A stretch of 41,693 nucleotides of DNA from Candidatus Methylopumilus sp. (GTDB lineage Bacteria > Pseudomonadota > Gammaproteobacteria > Burkholderiales > Methylophilaceae), in contig SHXT01000012.1 of assembly GCA_009693175.1 (NCBI GenBank), forward strand, positions 1 to 41,693, in the 5' to 3' direction. This document shows positions 10,723-17,855 of the stretch, in pieces. A program made the position numbers and the translations under genes. Within the stretch, counting starts at the first letter, position 1. Each line of letters opens with the position of its first letter. The notes below the pieces were generated by a model. It saw only the letters and a program-made list of their open reading frames with translations, did not search any database and was not told the origin of the DNA.

Positions 10723-11469
10723 ATGTTTAAGAAAATTAGAGAAGATATTGCAATTGTGTTTGAACGCGATCCGGCCGCGAGGTCGACGCTCGAGGTCTTA
10801 ACAACTTATCCCGGTGTACACGCACTACTCATACACCGCTTGGCGCATGCGTTCTGGCAAATCAAGCTCTACTGGCTTGGCCGAGTCATCTCTCACATAG
10901 GCCGATGGTTAACAGGCGTTGAAATTCATCCCGGTGCCACCATAGGAAGACGTGTTTTTATCGATCACGGCATGGGCGTCGTGATTGGCGAGACGGCGGT
11001 CATTGAAGATGATTGCACGCTCTATCACGGTGTGACCTTAGGTGGCACCTCTTGGAATAAGGGAAAACGTCATCCCACTTTAAAACAGGGTGTGGTGATT
11101 GGTGCGGGCGCTAAAATTCTAGGCCCTATCACGATTGGACGAGGCGCTAAAATTGGATCCAATGCGGTGGTGGTGAAAGATGTCCCCGCAAAAGCGACAG
11201 CTGTAGGTATTCCTGCGCGCATTGTGGATGAAGACCATAAAGTTAAACAAAAGAGTGTGGCAAAAGAGCCCGTCTTCAACGCCTATGCAGTGGGTCGAGA
11301 TGAGCCCGATCCCATACACAAAAACCTTGACACACTTCTCCAGGCCATCAAAAAACAGAACCAAACGATTGAACGCTTAGAGTTAAAAATTAAAGCCTTA
11401 CAACCCCAAGCGCGCGAGGATTTAAAGCTCGCCAAAGCCTTTGCAGCCAAGAAAAAGACGTCTAGATAA
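10723..11469 (+). CDS. cysE: Serine O-acetyltransferase
   Basis: CysE transfers acetyl from acetyl-CoA to L-serine to give O-acetylserine, the acceptor for sulfide in cysteine synthesis. The N-terminal helical domain (about 1-65) is followed by a left-handed beta-helix of hexapeptide repeats (about 65-170; [56 protein letters not shown]). Length is 248. A C-terminal tail of about 70 charged residues extends past the usual end and may form a short coiled coil near 205-225. Its stop codon touches the IscR operator of the following isc operon, so cysteine supply and Fe-S assembly are adjacent but have separate promoters. Confidence 0.95.
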
Positions 11470-11501
11470 TACTTGACTAAATTAATGGGTTATTCTATAC
11501 T
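11469..11501 (+). promoter_or_regulatory. iscR promoter with overlapping IscR type 1 operator
   Basis: A sigma70 promoter is seen: TTGACT at 11473-11478, a 17-base spacer and TATACT at 11496-11501. The 25 bases 11469-11493 match 22 of 25 positions of the E. coli IscR type 1 (cluster-dependent) site consensus as I recall it. The first 16 positions all fit, and the mismatches are at positions 17, 19 and 22. Holo-IscR bound here would cover the -35 box and repress the operon, the standard feedback on Fe-S supply. Confidence 0.72.
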
Positions 11502-11541: not shown

Positions 11542-12027
11542 ATGCGTTTAACCACCAAAGGTCGTTTTGCTGTCACCGCTATCTTAGATCTCGCGTTAAA
11601 CGAGAAAGAAAACCCTGTTACCTTAGCCGAGATTAGTGAACGACAATCTATCTCTCTGTCCTATCTTGAGCAACTTTTTAGCCATATGCGTCGTGAAGGC
11701 ATTGTCAAAAGTGTACGCGGGCCAGGCGGCGGTTATCACATTGCAAAAAAACATCAAGACATTACGGTCAAAGCAATTATTACAGCCGTCGATGAAGAGA
11801 TTGATGCCACACAATGCAACGGCAAAGAGAACTGTCATGAAGGCGGTCGCTGTATTACGCATGATTTATGGGCATCGATTAATCTGAAAATTCTTGATTT
11901 CCTAGAAAGCCTAACCTTGGCCCACCTTGTTGAGGCGCAAGCTAAAGAAAGTAAGAACGATCGCGAGACCGCAATCTTTTTCTTAAACGACAAGCTCAAC
12001 CAAGGAAACGTTGCGAAAGCGGTGTAA
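11542..12027 (+). CDS. iscR: Fe-S cluster-sensing transcription regulator IscR
   Basis: IscR is an Rrf2-family regulator that represses the isc operon when it carries a [2Fe-2S] cluster. The 161-residue protein has a winged-helix N terminus ([19 protein letters not shown], recognition region [20 protein letters not shown], wing GPGGGYHI). The cluster ligands are Cys92, Cys98, Cys104 and His107, at the same positions as in E. coli IscR. AAGGA lies eight bases before the ATG. It leads the isc operon and has an IscR-like operator over its own promoter. Confidence 0.97.
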
Positions 12028-12037
12028 TTTAAAAAAC

Positions 12038-13183
12038 ATGCACAAAGTTTACTTAGACCATAACGCCACCACAGCCATAGAACCTAAGGTGCTCGCTGTG
12101 ATGATGCCTTACTTAGAGACACAGCAAGGCAACCCTACGAGCCAACATAGTTTTGGAAGGCACGCTAGAACTGCAATAGAAGAAGCACGCGAACAGGTAG
12201 CGCTCGCTATTCACGCACAACCTACTGAAGTGATTTTCACATCAGGAGGCACTGAGGCGAACAATATGATTGTGCATGGTGCCGCGATCAAAAGACCAGG
12301 TAGTGTATTAATCAGAAGCAATATCGAACATCCGTGTGTAGCCCGTCCCATCGACGCCTTAACACATCAAGGCTGGCAAAAAGAATTGTTAGCAGTGAAT
12401 GAAGAAGGTGTCCTAACAAAAGAAGCTTACACAAAAATAAAGAGTAACGATATCAGTCTTGTCTCGGTGATGCTTGCTAACAACGAAACAGGTGCAATTC
12501 AGGATGTATCACTTTTTAAAGACTTTGCTAAAGAAAAAAAAGCACTCTCGCATACCGACGCGGTACAAGCATTCGGAAAAATAGATGTACGCTTTGATGC
12601 ATTAGGTATCGACGCCATGACACTCTCAAGCCATAAAATATATGGCCCTCAAGGTGTGGGAGCACTTATTCTAAATAAGCGCATGGATATCGAGCCCTTC
12701 ATTTACGGTGGCGGACAGGAAAAGAATTTAAGAAGTGGTACCGAAAACATTGCTGCGATTGTAGGTTTCGGTAAGGCGTGTGAGTTAATTTCTGAGTCGA
12801 TGAAACAAACTTCAATAAACTCACTCGTGCTACAAAAAACATTAGAGCTCGGTTTAAAAGAGTTAGGTGCAATTATTTTTTCTGAAAACATAAACCGCTT
12901 AACTAACACTACGTTTTTTGCATTTAAAAATATTGAGGGTTCAACACTTCTCACAGCCCTCGATAAAAAAGGATTTGCAATCGCGAGTGGTTCTGCCTGC
13001 TCAAGTGTTAACAAAGAACCGAGTCATGTGCTTCTATCCATGGGCGTCGATGAAGACCTTGCACGCGGCGCATTAAGAATTAGCTTTGGCACGAAGAACA
13101 CGATGGATGAAGTGAAGTTAATACTAGAAGCTATCAAGAAAGAACTACACACATTAAAACAACTAACAGCGATCGCGGCATAA
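12038..13183 (+). CDS. NifS-like cysteine desulfurase (second desulfurase of the isc operon)
   Basis: A PLP enzyme of the class V aminotransferase family that should mobilise sulfur from cysteine as a persulfide. I start at the ATG giving MHKVYLDHNATTAIEP, ten bases after iscR; the frame is open upstream only via a TTG inside iscR. Length is 381. Seen are NIEHP (active-site His region), DAVQAFGK, the PLP lysine in LSSHKIYGPQGVGAL and the catalytic cysteine loop SGSACSSVNKEPSHVLLSMG. It is related to but clearly different from the following IscS and lacks the extended IscS C terminus (ending [12 protein letters not shown]...). Its division of labour with IscS is unknown. Confidence 0.88.
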   Translation: MHKVYLDHNATTAIEPKVLAVMMPYLETQQGNPTSQHSFGRHARTAIEEAREQVALAIHAQPTEVIFTSGGTEANNMIVHGAAIKRPGSVLIRSNIEHPCVARPIDALTHQGWQKELLAVNEEGVLTKEAYTKIKSNDISLVSVMLANNETGAIQDVSLFKDFAKEKKALSHTDAVQAFGKIDVRFDALGIDAMTLSSHKIYGPQGVGALILNKRMDIEPFIYGGGQEKNLRSGTENIAAIVGFGKACELISESMKQTSINSLVLQKTLELGLKELGAIIFSENINRLTNTTFFAFKNIEGSTLLTALDKKGFAIASGSACSSVNKEPSHVLLSMGVDEDLARGALRISFGTKNTMDEVKLILEAIKKELHTLKQLTAIAA

Positions 13184-13186
13184 AAT

Positions 13187-14410
13187 ATGACACAAACTAC
13201 ACAACGTAAACCCATTTATTTAGATTACTCTGCAACGACACCGATTGATCAATGTGTCGCCGACAAAATGATTCCTTTCATGACAGAACATTTCGGTAAT
13301 CCTGCATCACGTAGCCATAGCTTTGGATGGACTGCAGAGAAAGCAGTTGAAGAAGCGCGTGAAGAAGTTGCAAAATTAGTTGGTGCAGATTCAAAAGAAA
13401 TTGTATGGACATCTGGCGCGACAGAATCAAATAACTTAGCCATTAAAGGTGCGAGTCATTTTTATAACGCTAAAGGTAAACACATTTTAACGATTGCAAC
13501 CGAACATAAGGCGGTGATTGATGCTGTGCGTGAACTCGAACGCGAAGGCTACACTGCAACTTATTTAGAACCCGAGCCTAATGGTTTAGTGGATCTTGAA
13601 AAATTTAAAGCGGCGATTCGTCCAGATACTGTTTTAGCCTCTGTGATGTTTGTGAATAACGAGATTGGTGTCATTCAAGATATCGTAGCGTTAGGTAATA
13701 TATGCCGAGAAAATAAAGTGATCTTCCATGTCGATGCTGCACAAGCTACAGGCAAGGTAGAAATTAATTTAGAAAATTTACCTGTCGACCTCATGAGCTT
13801 CTCAGCACATAAAACTTACGGTCCTAAAGGTATCGGTGCGCTTTATGTAAGACGTAAACCACGCATTCGTATCGAAGCACAGATGCATGGTGGTGGTCAC
13901 GAACGAGGCATGCGCTCAGGTACATTAGCAACACATCAAATTGTCGGCATGGGTGAAGCATTTAGAATTGCGCGCGAAGAAATGAAAGAAGAAAATGATC
14001 GCATCAGAAAACTACGCGATAAATTACTCACAGGACTTCAAAAGATTGAGGAAGTGTACGTGAATGGTGACTTAAAGCATCGTATCCCACATAACCTTAA
14101 CATCAGCTTTAACTACGTCGAGGGTGAGTCACTCATCATGGCGGTAAAAGACATTGCGGTATCAAGTGGTTCTGCATGTACCTCAGCGAGCTTAGAACCA
14201 AGTTATGTTTTGCGTGCGCTCGGTCGCTCGGATGAATTAGCTCATAGCTCCATCCGATTTTCCATTGGACGCTTTACGACAGAAGCAGATGTTGATTTCA
14301 CGATTCAATTATTAAAAGACAAGATTCATAAATTAAGAGAGCTCTCACCTTTGTGGGAGATGTTTAAAGATGGTATTGATATTAGTAAAGTTGAGTGGGC
14401 TGCCCACTAA
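13187..14410 (+). CDS. iscS: Cysteine desulfurase IscS
   Basis: IscS takes sulfur from L-cysteine and passes it as persulfide to IscU and to tRNA thiolation. The 407 residues match E. coli IscS (404). Seen are [19 protein letters not shown] (active-site His), [11 protein letters not shown], the PLP lysine in [20 protein letters not shown], and the catalytic cysteine in [21 protein letters not shown]. The IscU-docking C terminus [19 protein letters not shown] is present. It follows the NifS-like gene by three bases and precedes iscU by 18 bases with an AAGGA ribosome site. Confidence 0.98.
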
Positions 14411-14428: not shown

Positions 14429-14812
14429 ATGGCATACAGCGAAAAAGTATTAGATCACTACGAAAACCCAAGAAATGTGGGCTCACTCGATAAAGATGAT
14501 CCACATGTGGGTACCGGCATGGTCGGCGCACCGGCTTGTGGTGACGTCATGAAATTACAAATCAAGGTTAGCGATGACGGCGTCATCGAGGATGCAAAAT
14601 TTAAAACCTACGGCTGTGGTTCTGCGATTGCATCAAGCTCGCTTGTGACTGAATGGTTAAAAGGTAAAACATTAAATGAAGCAGCTCAAATTAAAAACTC
14701 TGCGATCGCTGAAGAGTTAGCGTTGCCACCGGTTAAAATACACTGTTCGGTATTAGCTGAAGATGCAATTAAGGCAGCTGTCGCCGACTTTAAAAGTAAA
14801 CAAGGGCATTAA
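14429..14812 (+). CDS. iscU: Fe-S cluster assembly scaffold IscU
   Basis: IscU is the scaffold on which [2Fe-2S] clusters are built before handover. The 127 residues carry the three conserved cysteines ([31 protein letters not shown]), the conserved aspartate after the first cysteine, and the LPPVK motif that HscA recognises. Opening [19 protein letters not shown] is typical. The position between iscS and iscA and the strong upstream AAGGA leave no doubt. Confidence 0.98.
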
Positions 14813-14817
14813 AAAAT

Positions 14818-15141
14818 ATGGCGATTTCAATCACTCAAAAAGCTGCTGAGCGTGTAGAAAAATATCTTAAGCACCGAGGTAAGGGCATTGGTTTGCGCTT
14901 AGGCGTAAAAACTACAGGCTGCTCAGGTATGGCATACACATTAGAGTTCGTCGATGAAACATTACCTGAAGATCAAATCTTTGAAAGTCATGGCGTTAAG
15001 ATCATGATCGACCCAAAGAGCTTGGTCTATATCGATGGCACAGAGCTGGATTTTGAGAAGGAAGGCCTTAACGAGGGATTTAAGTTTAACAATCCTAACG
15101 TCAAGGCAGAATGTGGCTGTGGCGAAAGCTTTACAGTGTGA
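14818..15141 (+). CDS. iscA: A-type Fe-S carrier IscA
   Basis: IscA binds iron or [Fe-S] clusters and helps [4Fe-4S] delivery. The 107 residues show the family cysteines: [16 protein letters not shown] near residue 35 and ECGCGESF at the C terminus. It starts six bases after iscU and its stop overlaps the GTG start of hscB by four bases (GTGA). Confidence 0.97.
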
Positions 15142-15650
15142 CCACAAATTTTTTTAACTTACTCAATATCCCCGAGCAGTTCGTCATTGATTTAGAAAAA
15201 CTTAATCAACACTACCAAACCATTCAAAAAGAAATTCATCCTGATCGCTTTGCTTCGACAAATAAAAATGATCAACTACAGTCTGTTAAGAAAACAGCTG
15301 AGTTGAATGTTGCTTATCAAACATTAAAGTCGCCATTAAGGCGCGCTGAATACTTATTGCACATTCATGGTCTAGATATGATGCATGAAAAAAATACAGC
15401 TGTGTCACAAGATTTCTTAATGCAGCAGATGGAATGGCGCGAGGAGCTTGAAACACATAAAAAAAATAAAGCATCGCTTGAAGCCTTATCACTCAACATT
15501 CAAAAAGAAAAAAAAGAGATCCTCCATTTACTGCCAGAGTGTTTTAAAAAAAAGAATGATCTCCACGAAGCCATCGAGATGACACGTAAACTTAATTTTA
15601 TTGAAAAGATTGAGCAGCACATCAGTGATGCCTTAATCGAAATTGAATAA
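15138..15650 (+). CDS. hscB: Co-chaperone HscB (J-protein for Fe-S assembly)
   Basis: HscB is the J-domain partner of HscA and brings IscU to it. I choose the GTG at 15138, which overlaps the iscA stop as GTGA and gives 170 residues ((M)[17 protein letters not shown]), equal to E. coli HscB (171). An ATG 27 bases upstream lies inside iscA and adds residues unlike the family. The J domain carries HPDRFAS (His-Pro-Asp) near residue 34. The C-terminal three-helix IscU-binding domain follows (about 85-170). Confidence 0.94.
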
Positions 15651-15652
15651 AT

Positions 15653-17518
15653 ATGGCGCTTCTTCAAATCGCCGAACCAGGTCAAAGCACATTACCTCAT
15701 CAGCATAAGCTCTCGGTAGGTATTGACTTAGGCACGACAAATTCACTTGTGGCGTCTGTACAAAGTGGCACGCCTACAGTCTTAAAAGATAGTGATGGTA
15801 AAACACTCATCCCATCTATCGTGTTCTATGGCAAAGACGAAATAAAAGTAGGTCACGAAGCAGTGAGCCACTTAAAAGATGATGCAAAAAATACCATTGT
15901 TTCAGTCAAACGTTTTATGGGTCATGTATTAAAAGATTTGCAACATCGCGATGCCCTTCCCTACGAGTTCGATGAAAGCAATACAGATATCCAACTTAAA
16001 ACTCATCAAGGACTAAAACATCCAATTGAAGTCTCTTCTGATATCTTAAAAAAGTTAAAGACACTTGCTGAAGTTTCTTTATGTGGAGAAATTATAGGTG
16101 CCGTCATTACGGTGCCTGCATATTTTGATGATGCACAAAGACAAGCCACAAAAGATGCAGCAAAACTTGCAGGGCTTAATGTTTTACGTCTCATAAATGA
16201 ACCAACAGCAGCAGCTGTTGCTTATGGTCTCGATCAAAAGAAAGAAGGTATCTTTGCCATTTATGATTTGGGTGGTGGTACGTTTGATATTTCTATTCTA
16301 AGGCTCTCAAAAGGTGTCTTTGAAGTCTTAGCTACAAACGGTCATGCGCACTTAGGCGGTGATGACTTTGATCAAGTGATTGTTGAGATGATGAAATCAA
16401 AACATCAACTCGTAGAACTCACCCATGAAGATAAGCGATCCTTAATTACACATGCTAAGTACCTTAAAGAATCCTTAACAACACTAAAGCTCGCAGAAAC
16501 TTCATTCACACTCCATGGTGGGAAGAAGATTTTATTTGCATTAGATCGAGACACGTTCAAAGAAAAAACAATGCCACTTGTTCAAAAAACAATTCAGCCT
16601 ATCCGCAAGGCATTAAGTGATGCAAAGTTATCAATTGAATCAATTGATGGGGTTGTTATGGTCGGTGGAGCAACGCGTATGCTTCATGTGCAATCAGAAA
16701 TTAAGGATTTCTTTCACCAAGCTTTACTTAACAATCTTAACCCTGATGAGATCGTTGCATTAGGAGCCGCAAGGCAAGCACACACACTCGCCGGCAATAA
16801 ATCAAGTGAGGATTTACTTTTACTCGACGTAACGCCATTGTCACTAGGTATTGAAACAATGGGTGGTCTTGTTGAAAAAATTATTCAAAGAAACTCCGCT
16901 ATCCCAATTGCAAAGGCGCAGGAATTTACCACTTTTAAAGACGGTCAAACCGCTATGTCAATTCACGTATTGCAAGGAGAGCGTGAGCGTGTATCTGATT
17001 GTAGATCACTTGCAAACTTTACACTCACCGGCATTCCTCCTATGGTGGCTGGATCTGCAAAAATACGTGTGACATTTCAGATTGACGCAGACGGTTTGCT
17101 ATCTGTATCGGCAAAAGAACTTTCTCAAAATAAAGAATCAAGCATTACCGTCAAACCATCTTACGGTTTATCGGAAGAGCAAATTACAAATATGCTAAAA
17201 CAGTCTTTCGAAAAAGCAGGTGAAGATAAAAAGATTCGAGCGCTTAGCGAAGCTAAAGTGGAAGGTGAACAACTTGTTACAGCGGTTAAAAATGCATTGA
17301 CGGAAGATAGTAGCAATCTATTAGATCAAGATGAAATAAAAATAATTCAAGAGGCATTAGAAGCTCTTATAGCAGCACTTAAAAATGAAGATGCTGATTT
17401 AATTATAGAGCATACAAAACATTTAAATCATTTAACAGAACCTTTTGCGGCAAGACGTATGGATCAATCTGTAGGTAATGCACTTAAAGGTAAATCAATA
17501 GATAAGGTAAACTTGTAA
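15653..17518 (+). CDS. hscA: Fe-S assembly chaperone HscA (Hsp70 family)
   Basis: HscA is the specialised Hsp70 that uses ATP to release clusters from IscU by binding its LPPVK motif. Length is 621 (E. coli 616). ATPase-domain motifs are [13 protein letters not shown] (about 23-35), [26 protein letters not shown] and VMVGGATRM. The substrate domain begins near [14 protein letters not shown]. It starts three bases after hscB and is followed one base later by fdx. DnaK is excluded by the operon and by the shorter C terminus. Confidence 0.97.
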
Positions 17519-17519
17519 C

Positions 17520-17855
17520 ATGCCAAAAATCATTATCTTGCCTCATATAGAAATTTGTCCGAATGGTGAAGTAATTGATGCTAAACCAGGTATATCTATT
17601 TGTGAAAACTTATTACAAAACCATATTGATATTGAGCATGCTTGTGATCAAGTCTGTGCATGTACAACCTGCCATGTGATTGTGCGTGAAGGTTTTGAAA
17701 CTTTAAATAAGGCCGATGATTTAGAAGAGGATCTCCTTGATAAAGCTTGGGGCTTAGAACCAAAATCACGCTTATCTTGTCAGGCAATTGTAGATAAGCA
17801 TGATCTCACAATTGAAATTCCGCGCTATACAATTAATATGGCGAAAGAGGGTTAA
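17520..17855 (+). CDS. fdx: ISC-type [2Fe-2S] ferredoxin
   Basis: Supplies electrons for cluster assembly on IscU. The 111-residue protein has the adrenodoxin-type ligand set Cys42, Cys48, Cys51 and Cys87, at the same positions as E. coli Fdx, with one extra cysteine at 46 (ACDQVCACTTCH). It is the last gene of the isc operon; no iscX follows. A stem-loop terminator overlaps its 3' end. Confidence 0.96.
   Translation: MPKIIILPHIEICPNGEVIDAKPGISICENLLQNHIDIEHACDQVCACTTCHVIVREGFETLNKADDLEEDLLDKAWGLEPKSRLSCQAIVDKHDLTIEIPRYTINMAKEG

Follow-up and report, generated by a model that had tools for sequence, protein, structure and literature searches.

The isc operon of Candidatus Methylopumilus sp. 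carries, between iscR and iscS, the gene of a second class I cysteine desulfurase (NifS-like, 381 amino acids; hereafter X), and the X-IscS tandem is found repeatedly in Beta- and Gammaproteobacteria as well as in Pseudomonadota outside the class Gammaproteobacteria. X belongs to a known enzyme class, in which it forms a subfamily of its own, and its operon is likewise a known one; it is best explained as an ancient, mainly vertically inherited class I desulfurase distinct from IscS. As to its task, we lean somewhat towards an IscR-controlled, IscU-independent sulfur donor working beside IscS, with MnmA as the likeliest acceptor. The understanding of cysteine desulfurases is built on E. coli, with its single IscS for many acceptors. 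If the division of labour proposed here is true, many proteobacteria separate the flow of sulfur to iron-sulfur clusters from other sulfur uses. Among the full-text literature matches listed, none described an isc operon with a tandem of class I desulfurases.

The window, i.e., the whole stretch of DNA analysed (41,693 nucleotides, contig SHXT01000012.1), has on its forward strand the gene order cysE-iscR-X-iscS-iscU-iscA-hscB-hscA-fdx. X (12038 to 13183) was assigned from its open reading frame (ORF), profiles and the tree, and its start was placed at the ATG at 12038; the mechanical ORF begins upstream at a TTG (12011). The stop of X and the start of iscS (13187 to 14410; 407 amino acids; TIGR02006, 734.7 bits, cut-off 643.2) are separated by 3 bases, and the stop of iscR and X by 10. 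The iscR gene (11542 to 12027) has a C-x5-C-x5-C motif in its translation and scored 206.1 bits with TIGR02010, slightly below the cut-off of 207.55; iscU (14429 to 14812) scored above its cut-off (TIGR01999, 231.4 bits). The cysE-like serine acetyltransferase gene (10723 to 11469), which is a conserved neighbour upstream, iscA (14818 to 15141), hscB (15111 to 15650; start uncertain, as the listed ORF overlaps iscA), hscA (15653 to 17518) and the ferredoxin gene fdx (17520 to 17855) were identified from their ORFs and synteny and named by recognition. Rfam and tRNA scans of the window gave no matches. The genome to which the window belongs consists of 1,171,301 bases in 35 contigs (97% complete). 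It contains 10 matches to PF00266, of which the two desulfurases of the window are the top ones (296 and 256 bits); the third (L003, 169 bits) resembles phosphoserine aminotransferase by eye, and the remaining seven score 27 bits or less.

An earlier note on this DNA had described two desulfurases in tandem in the isc operon, the NifS-like one between iscR and iscS and with intact catalytic residues, and had set them against an E. coli operon with iscS alone. All three statements were confirmed: both ORFs lie there, and in E. coli K-12 iscS follows iscR with no gene in between. The PLP lysine and the catalytic cysteine are Lys200 (codon 12635-12637) and Cys321 (12998-13000, within SGSACSSVNKEPS) in X, and Lys209 (13811-13813) and Cys331 (14177-14179) in IscS. 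Arg41 of X (codon 12158) occupies the place of Trp45 of E. coli IscS. In the IscS of the window, Trp48 (13328) is present and the IscU-docking tail begins with SPLWEM at codon 387 (14345). Thus X resembles E. coli IscS (TIGR02006) in the class I fold, the PLP lysine, the long SGSAC loop and the IscR-controlled isc operon, but differs from it in having neither the IscU-docking tail nor Trp45 and in forming a separate clade, with 35% identity to the IscS of the window.

That both genes are under IscR control, as the earlier note held, is predicted from a conserved IscR box that precedes iscR. The box (11469 to 11493, forward strand) is type-1-like, agrees with the consensus at 22 of 25 positions, and was the only match in a DNA search of the window, against 0.02 expected for the 25-base consensus. 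It overlaps a sigma-70-like promoter (TTGACT-17-TATACT; 11473 to 11501, forward strand; 10 of 12 in a consensus scan), a kind of match that is common by chance in this region (17 found versus 15.7 expected). With the same consensus, 67 of 74 iscR starts at related loci had an upstream match of at least 18/25. The box is also kept at loci with X but without IscS (L040, with 25/25, L041, L057, L060, L072, L083 and L084); values below 18 were obtained for L056 (16) and L062 (17).

The family assignment of X was examined with profiles. The top NCBIfam equivalog was TIGR03402 (NifS, 395.4 bits); TIGR03235 (DndA, 327.8 bits), TIGR02006 (IscS, 313.4 bits) and TIGR01979 (SufS, 148.2 bits) also matched, all four below the respective cut-offs (530.75, 480, the curated 643.2, and 475.1). 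In addition to the scores, X was rejected as an IscS equivalog by the absence of the C-terminal IscU-docking tail and its position outside the IscS clade; as nitrogenase-associated NifS by two plasmid NifS references lying outside the X clade; as class II SufS/CsdA by the absence of a SufE-family match in the genome of the window; and as DndA/SspA of DNA phosphorothioation by its isc neighbours. The matches of the PADLOC SspA and DndA models to X (409.1 and 397.1 bits) are read as general homology. The residues of class I desulfurases (K206, C328, H104, D180, Q183 and H205 in E. coli numbering) were present in 56 of 56 X rows. The structure model of X (mean pLDDT 90.1) matched Nfs1 and IscS with Z of 49-50 and rmsd of 1.9-2.1 over 371-376 residues. 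Judging from these residues and the fold, X should be a desulfurase that takes sulfur from cysteine with PLP on Lys200 and carries it as persulfide on Cys321.

In the quick tree (102 rows, 57 labelled X by score), 56 of the 57 X rows formed one clade (SH-aLRT 99). The exception, L154, a frame of 1137 amino acids from G429, fell outside both the X and IscS clades and was excluded from the residue alignment and the careful tree. Desulfurase-like domains in frames of about 1140-1200 amino acids, possibly fusions, were seen in G280, G386, G288, G429 and G435. Support for the IscS branch in the quick tree was only 86, with DndA beside it. The careful tree (79 of the 102 rows, DndA and SufS rows being among those omitted) had an X clade of 41 rows (bootstrap/SH-aLRT, 100/99) and, separate from it, an IscS clade of 16 rows (100/100). 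The X subclades broadly track taxonomy, with branches for the named alphaproteobacterial (L111 and L143) and zetaproteobacterial (L144) rows, and inspection of the tree gave no sign of horizontal transfer into Methylophilaceae. Since X and IscS form separate clades and the X branches run along taxonomy, the pair appears to be old and may date back to the origin of Pseudomonadota; E. coli would then have lost X, as far as a tree without a safe root allows. The phylogeny that the earlier note had proposed as a check thus placed X and IscS in separate, supported clades; a recent duplication was not seen and is ruled out by these clades together with the 35% identity.

The family survey covered 150 genomes, that of the window included. 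Matches at E ≤ 1e-30, those to IscS included, occurred in 138 of them, and 134 reached the X level (E ≤ 3.3e-85; the best IscS match listed has 3.3e-77); four had weaker matches alone (G064, G143, G146 and G147). The other 12 had no match to the X query, nor an IscS match with that query; as IscS would have matched it, the locus is absent from those assemblies or genomes. X lies directly 5' of IscS in all of the 29 best-scoring family loci (L010-L038). Among the 29 best loci at the class level (L039-L067), 19 have X-IscS, seven have X-iscA without IscS, and three have neither (L044, and L051 and L065 at contig edges); most of the genomes in the class draw yielded no X. The scan of named genomes with query A1 gave 80 loci, of which 35 beta- and gammaproteobacterial ones (L068-L101 and L129) were counted, the rest being mostly other desulfurases; L111, L143 and L144 among the uncounted loci are X. 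The 35 comprise 21 tandems (including Accumulibacter, Dechloromonas, Aromatoleum, Azoarcus and Sulfuricella), nine X-iscA loci and five in which X stands alone (four of nitrosomonads, the fifth being L092 at a contig edge). Methylotenera and Methylophilaceae MAGs are the closest among the named records, their X being 80-81% identical. A scan of the named genomes with a single X protein found nothing. In the phylum draw (150 genomes), at least 27 genomes outside the class Gammaproteobacteria have an adjacent desulfurase pair, by eye and among the matches listed. X is followed by IscS at 15 loci outside the class (L155-L161, L164-L169, L175 and L176); the 11 of these that were included in the quick tree were all placed in the X clade. 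The arrangement is thus widespread and appears old, rather than an oddity of one operon, and the retention of both genes in a compact genome, to which the earlier note pointed, agrees with two intact, long-separated paralogues in this 1.17-Mb genome and in its relatives.

The surfaces by which IscS docks its partners differ between the two enzymes. The residue alignment contained 56 X rows and 20 IscS rows from the tree (the IscS row of L169 was left out). Residues 394-399 (E. coli IscS numbering), the end of the IscU tail, are gaps in every X row, and the place of Trp45 has Trp in 18 of 20 IscS and 0 of 56 X rows, with Arg in 52 of the latter; the IscS of the window retains both tail and Trp45 equivalent. 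The C-terminal difference noticed earlier between the paralogues is therefore real and conserved. For E. coli IscS, it was reported that the protein with residues 376-404 deleted does not bind IscU and that W45R reduces mnm5s2U and s4U to about 5% (PMC2854127, in the excerpt available). Note that Archaeoglobus IscS (382 amino acids), which is tail-less, has a solved complex with IscU (PDB 4eb5/4eb7, among the structure matches listed), so that a missing tail is compatible with IscU binding.

The persistence of X was then counted in 68 X-bearing genomes, picked by eye from a class draw of 276 (275 plus the genome of the window) by score and identity rather than from a tree of all genomes, frames above 1100 amino acids being left out. 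IscS at E ≤ 1e-130 was present in 45 of the 68 (46 of 69 with the genome of the window), leaving 23 with no strong IscS match. IscU above the cut-off was found in none of these 23 (weaker matches of 128-132 bits occur in G386 and G300), and SufB was present in 21; in two of them (G269 and G359), X lies at a contig edge and genes may be missing from the assembly. Seven further genomes have weak IscS matches that end at 382-391 of 402 positions (L054 in G185, L048 in G245, and L183-L187 in G225, G161, G176, G249 and G368, respectively). IscU above the cut-off is found in none of the seven (a weaker match occurs in G368), SufB in all seven, and the usual SPLWEM...WAH end is absent from all seven IscS relatives, six being shortened or diverged and L048 having a long unrelated extension. 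IscS thus drops its own tail where IscU is gone. The tail ends of L096 and L097 resemble this weak-IscS group; in G336, an IscS match slightly under the cut-off contains an in-frame stop, and its end is shortened.

The retention of X in genomes without IscS and IscU indicates that its job needs no IscU, and we consider it probable that X is independent of IscU in Candidatus Methylopumilus sp. also. IscS, with its docking surfaces for IscU and TusA/ThiI kept, would feed iron-sulfur assembly, and X, without both surfaces, would pass sulfur to other acceptors. The idea of the earlier note that one of the two enzymes serves another acceptor fits the missing IscU tail, the missing Trp45 and the persistence of X without IscS and IscU; the SufE/CsdE-like partner that it named is not supported. 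Of its reading as a whole, the parts on intact, long-separated paralogues, both kept behind a conserved IscR box and with low dN/dS on X, and on another acceptor are supported.

The alternative that survives best has X as a second sulfur donor for iron-sulfur assembly (to IscU, IscA or, elsewhere, SUF), which would add capacity under iron limitation or oxidative stress, conditions that derepress IscR. Gene context speaks for it: X is usually tied to iscR and the conserved IscR box, most loci have iscS or iscA, X lies directly 5' of iscA in seven of the 29 class loci and nine of the 35 named loci, and cysE-iscR-X-iscA-suf clusters exist, such as L083 (cysE-iscR-X-iscA, then sufB, sufD, sufS and sufU). 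The archaeal complex shows, moreover, that a tail-less IscS can bind IscU. However, the proteobacterial IscU-docking tail is missing from all 56 X rows, X persists without IscU above the cut-off, X stands in L083 beside sufS and sufU, and the genome of the window has neither a SufB nor a SufE match. We regard this alternative as unlikely, although it has to be taken seriously.

For the IscU-independent donor, several acceptors were weighed. A SufE/CsdE partner was rejected, as the SufE family was absent from all nine family genomes examined; the co-occurrence with SufE/CsdE-like acceptors that the earlier note had proposed to look for is thus not seen there. MnmA and TusA were present in all nine genomes and TusE/DsrC in none. 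The E. coli relay to MnmA is therefore incomplete in them, and MnmA must be fed without TusE. MnmA was also found in 20 of 21 X-only genomes. TusE/DsrC was independent of X, with 13 positives among 26 genomes that have both desulfurases, 13 among 24 assumed to have IscS only (picked by eye by score and identity) and 5 among 21 X-only ones, where the PF04358 count for TusE also takes in DsrC of sulfur oxidisers; TusE co-occurrence was accordingly discarded as a sign of direct MnmA feeding. With 72 of 80 genomes positive, spread over all groups, TusA was uninformative, and no X beside mnmA was seen in the loci read (most of 4 kb). YrvO of Bacillus subtilis hands sulfur directly to MnmA (PMC11784392, in part), and iscS of M. 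tuberculosis shares an operon with trmU and, in the passage that describes it, has no isc genes around (PMC10848736). MnmA without TusE, the direct feeding by YrvO and the iscS-trmU operon together make MnmA the leading candidate; X might hand sulfur directly to MnmA for tRNA 2-thiouridine, as reported for YrvO. Taken singly, this assignment, drawn by analogy, is possible but doubtful. The closest known systems include YrvO and M. tuberculosis IscS, desulfurases that work with no isc gene set around them; M. tuberculosis iscS adjoins trmU, and X lies in isc operons.

That X works for a single thio-cofactor pathway, such as that of the molybdenum cofactor, of formate dehydrogenase or of thiamine, in place of tRNA is improbable. 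Desulfurases with a cofactor partner of their own are known: NifS4 of R. capsulatus sulfurates Moco on XdhC, and both nifS3 and nifS4 are apparently essential (PMC2997495, in the excerpt available), but NifS4 is stimulated by SufE (PMC6239281, likewise) and so resembles SufS rather than X. NifS4 was hence set aside as a characterised X orthologue, and nifS3 rather than nifS4 may be the R. capsulatus orthologue of X.

Two further explanations have very little in their favour. The tight tandem in one operon would suit a mixed dimer of X and IscS, or a regulation of IscS by X, and both enzyme families are known to form homodimers; of the 68 X-bearing genomes, however, 23 have no strong IscS match, and E. 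coli and, judged by score, many class-draw genomes have IscS but no X, so that we hold this highly improbable. Equally hard to credit is a decaying spare copy, for, although X evolves faster than IscS (mean dN versus 11 genus members: X, 0.129; IscS, 0.059; IscR, 0.083; CysE, 0.093) and was not found in most class-draw genomes, all 56 X rows keep the catalytic residues, so that the loss of key residues considered in the earlier note is not seen, its dN/dS is 0.04-0.08 in nine of 11 comparisons with computable dS (dS being saturated), and the 12 family genomes without an X match, against 134 of 150 with an X-level one, show no IscS match with the X query either.

The naming of alphaproteobacterial enzymes also comes into question. 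The isc-suf operons of Rhodobacter (PMC6956336) and Caulobacter (PMC11475020) are described, in the parts of these papers available, as containing IscS and SufS; the name of the Caulobacter 'IscS' (CCNA_01941) rests on a reciprocal best hit, and its identity to the E. coli protein is 34.9% (PMC11475020). This 'IscS', as that of Rhodobacter sphaeroides, sits after iscR like X; unlike in the operon of the window, suf genes replace iscSUA-hscBA-fdx. L170, a locus outside the class, reads X-sufB-sufC-sufD, and its X joins the named alphaproteobacterial X (L111 and L143) in one branch of the X clade with a support of 99. This order and placement make it probable that the alphaproteobacterial isc-suf operons carry X under the name 'IscS'. 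If so, best-hit orthology put the name IscS on a different enzyme in Alphaproteobacteria. More tentatively, the early isc operon of Pseudomonadota may have contained a pair with divided tasks, IscS supplying IscU and TusA while X was the dedicated supplier of acceptors independent of IscU, MnmA for example; E. coli, with IscS as its only hub, would then be the derived case, and the alphaproteobacterial isc-suf 'IscS' a misnamed X.

The X clade likely has a solved structure, 4ixo (Rickettsia africae NifS-like), for which the PDB evidence is mixed. It was the sole PDB match below 1e-70 to one X-clade protein (252.8 bits), that query being from a 0.9-Mb genome outside the class. It resembles X in having Arg at the Trp45 place, the SGSACSSG...SHVL loop and no tail. 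It matched the X of the window with 240.8 bits and its model with Z of 45.9 and rmsd of 1.8, whereas a search at 1e-50 with the IscS of the window did not list it. When a profile built from 35 beta- and gammaproteobacterial X proteins was used, it ranked 22 of 27, under IscS and archaeal chains.

Two observations on iscU were made in passing. In G218 (C1:2490953; L180) and G197 (C1:35128; L181), iscU is located outside the isc operon, where, judged by eye, it immediately follows a second iscR-like gene. The genome of the window (G000) has a second iscU (C9:41759-42127; L179:4254-4664; 227 bits, above the cut-off) near an erpA-like gene (by eye), with 82% DNA identity to iscU of the window; among 15 family genomes, two copies occur in this genome only, and the second is either a recent acquisition or a MAG chimera.
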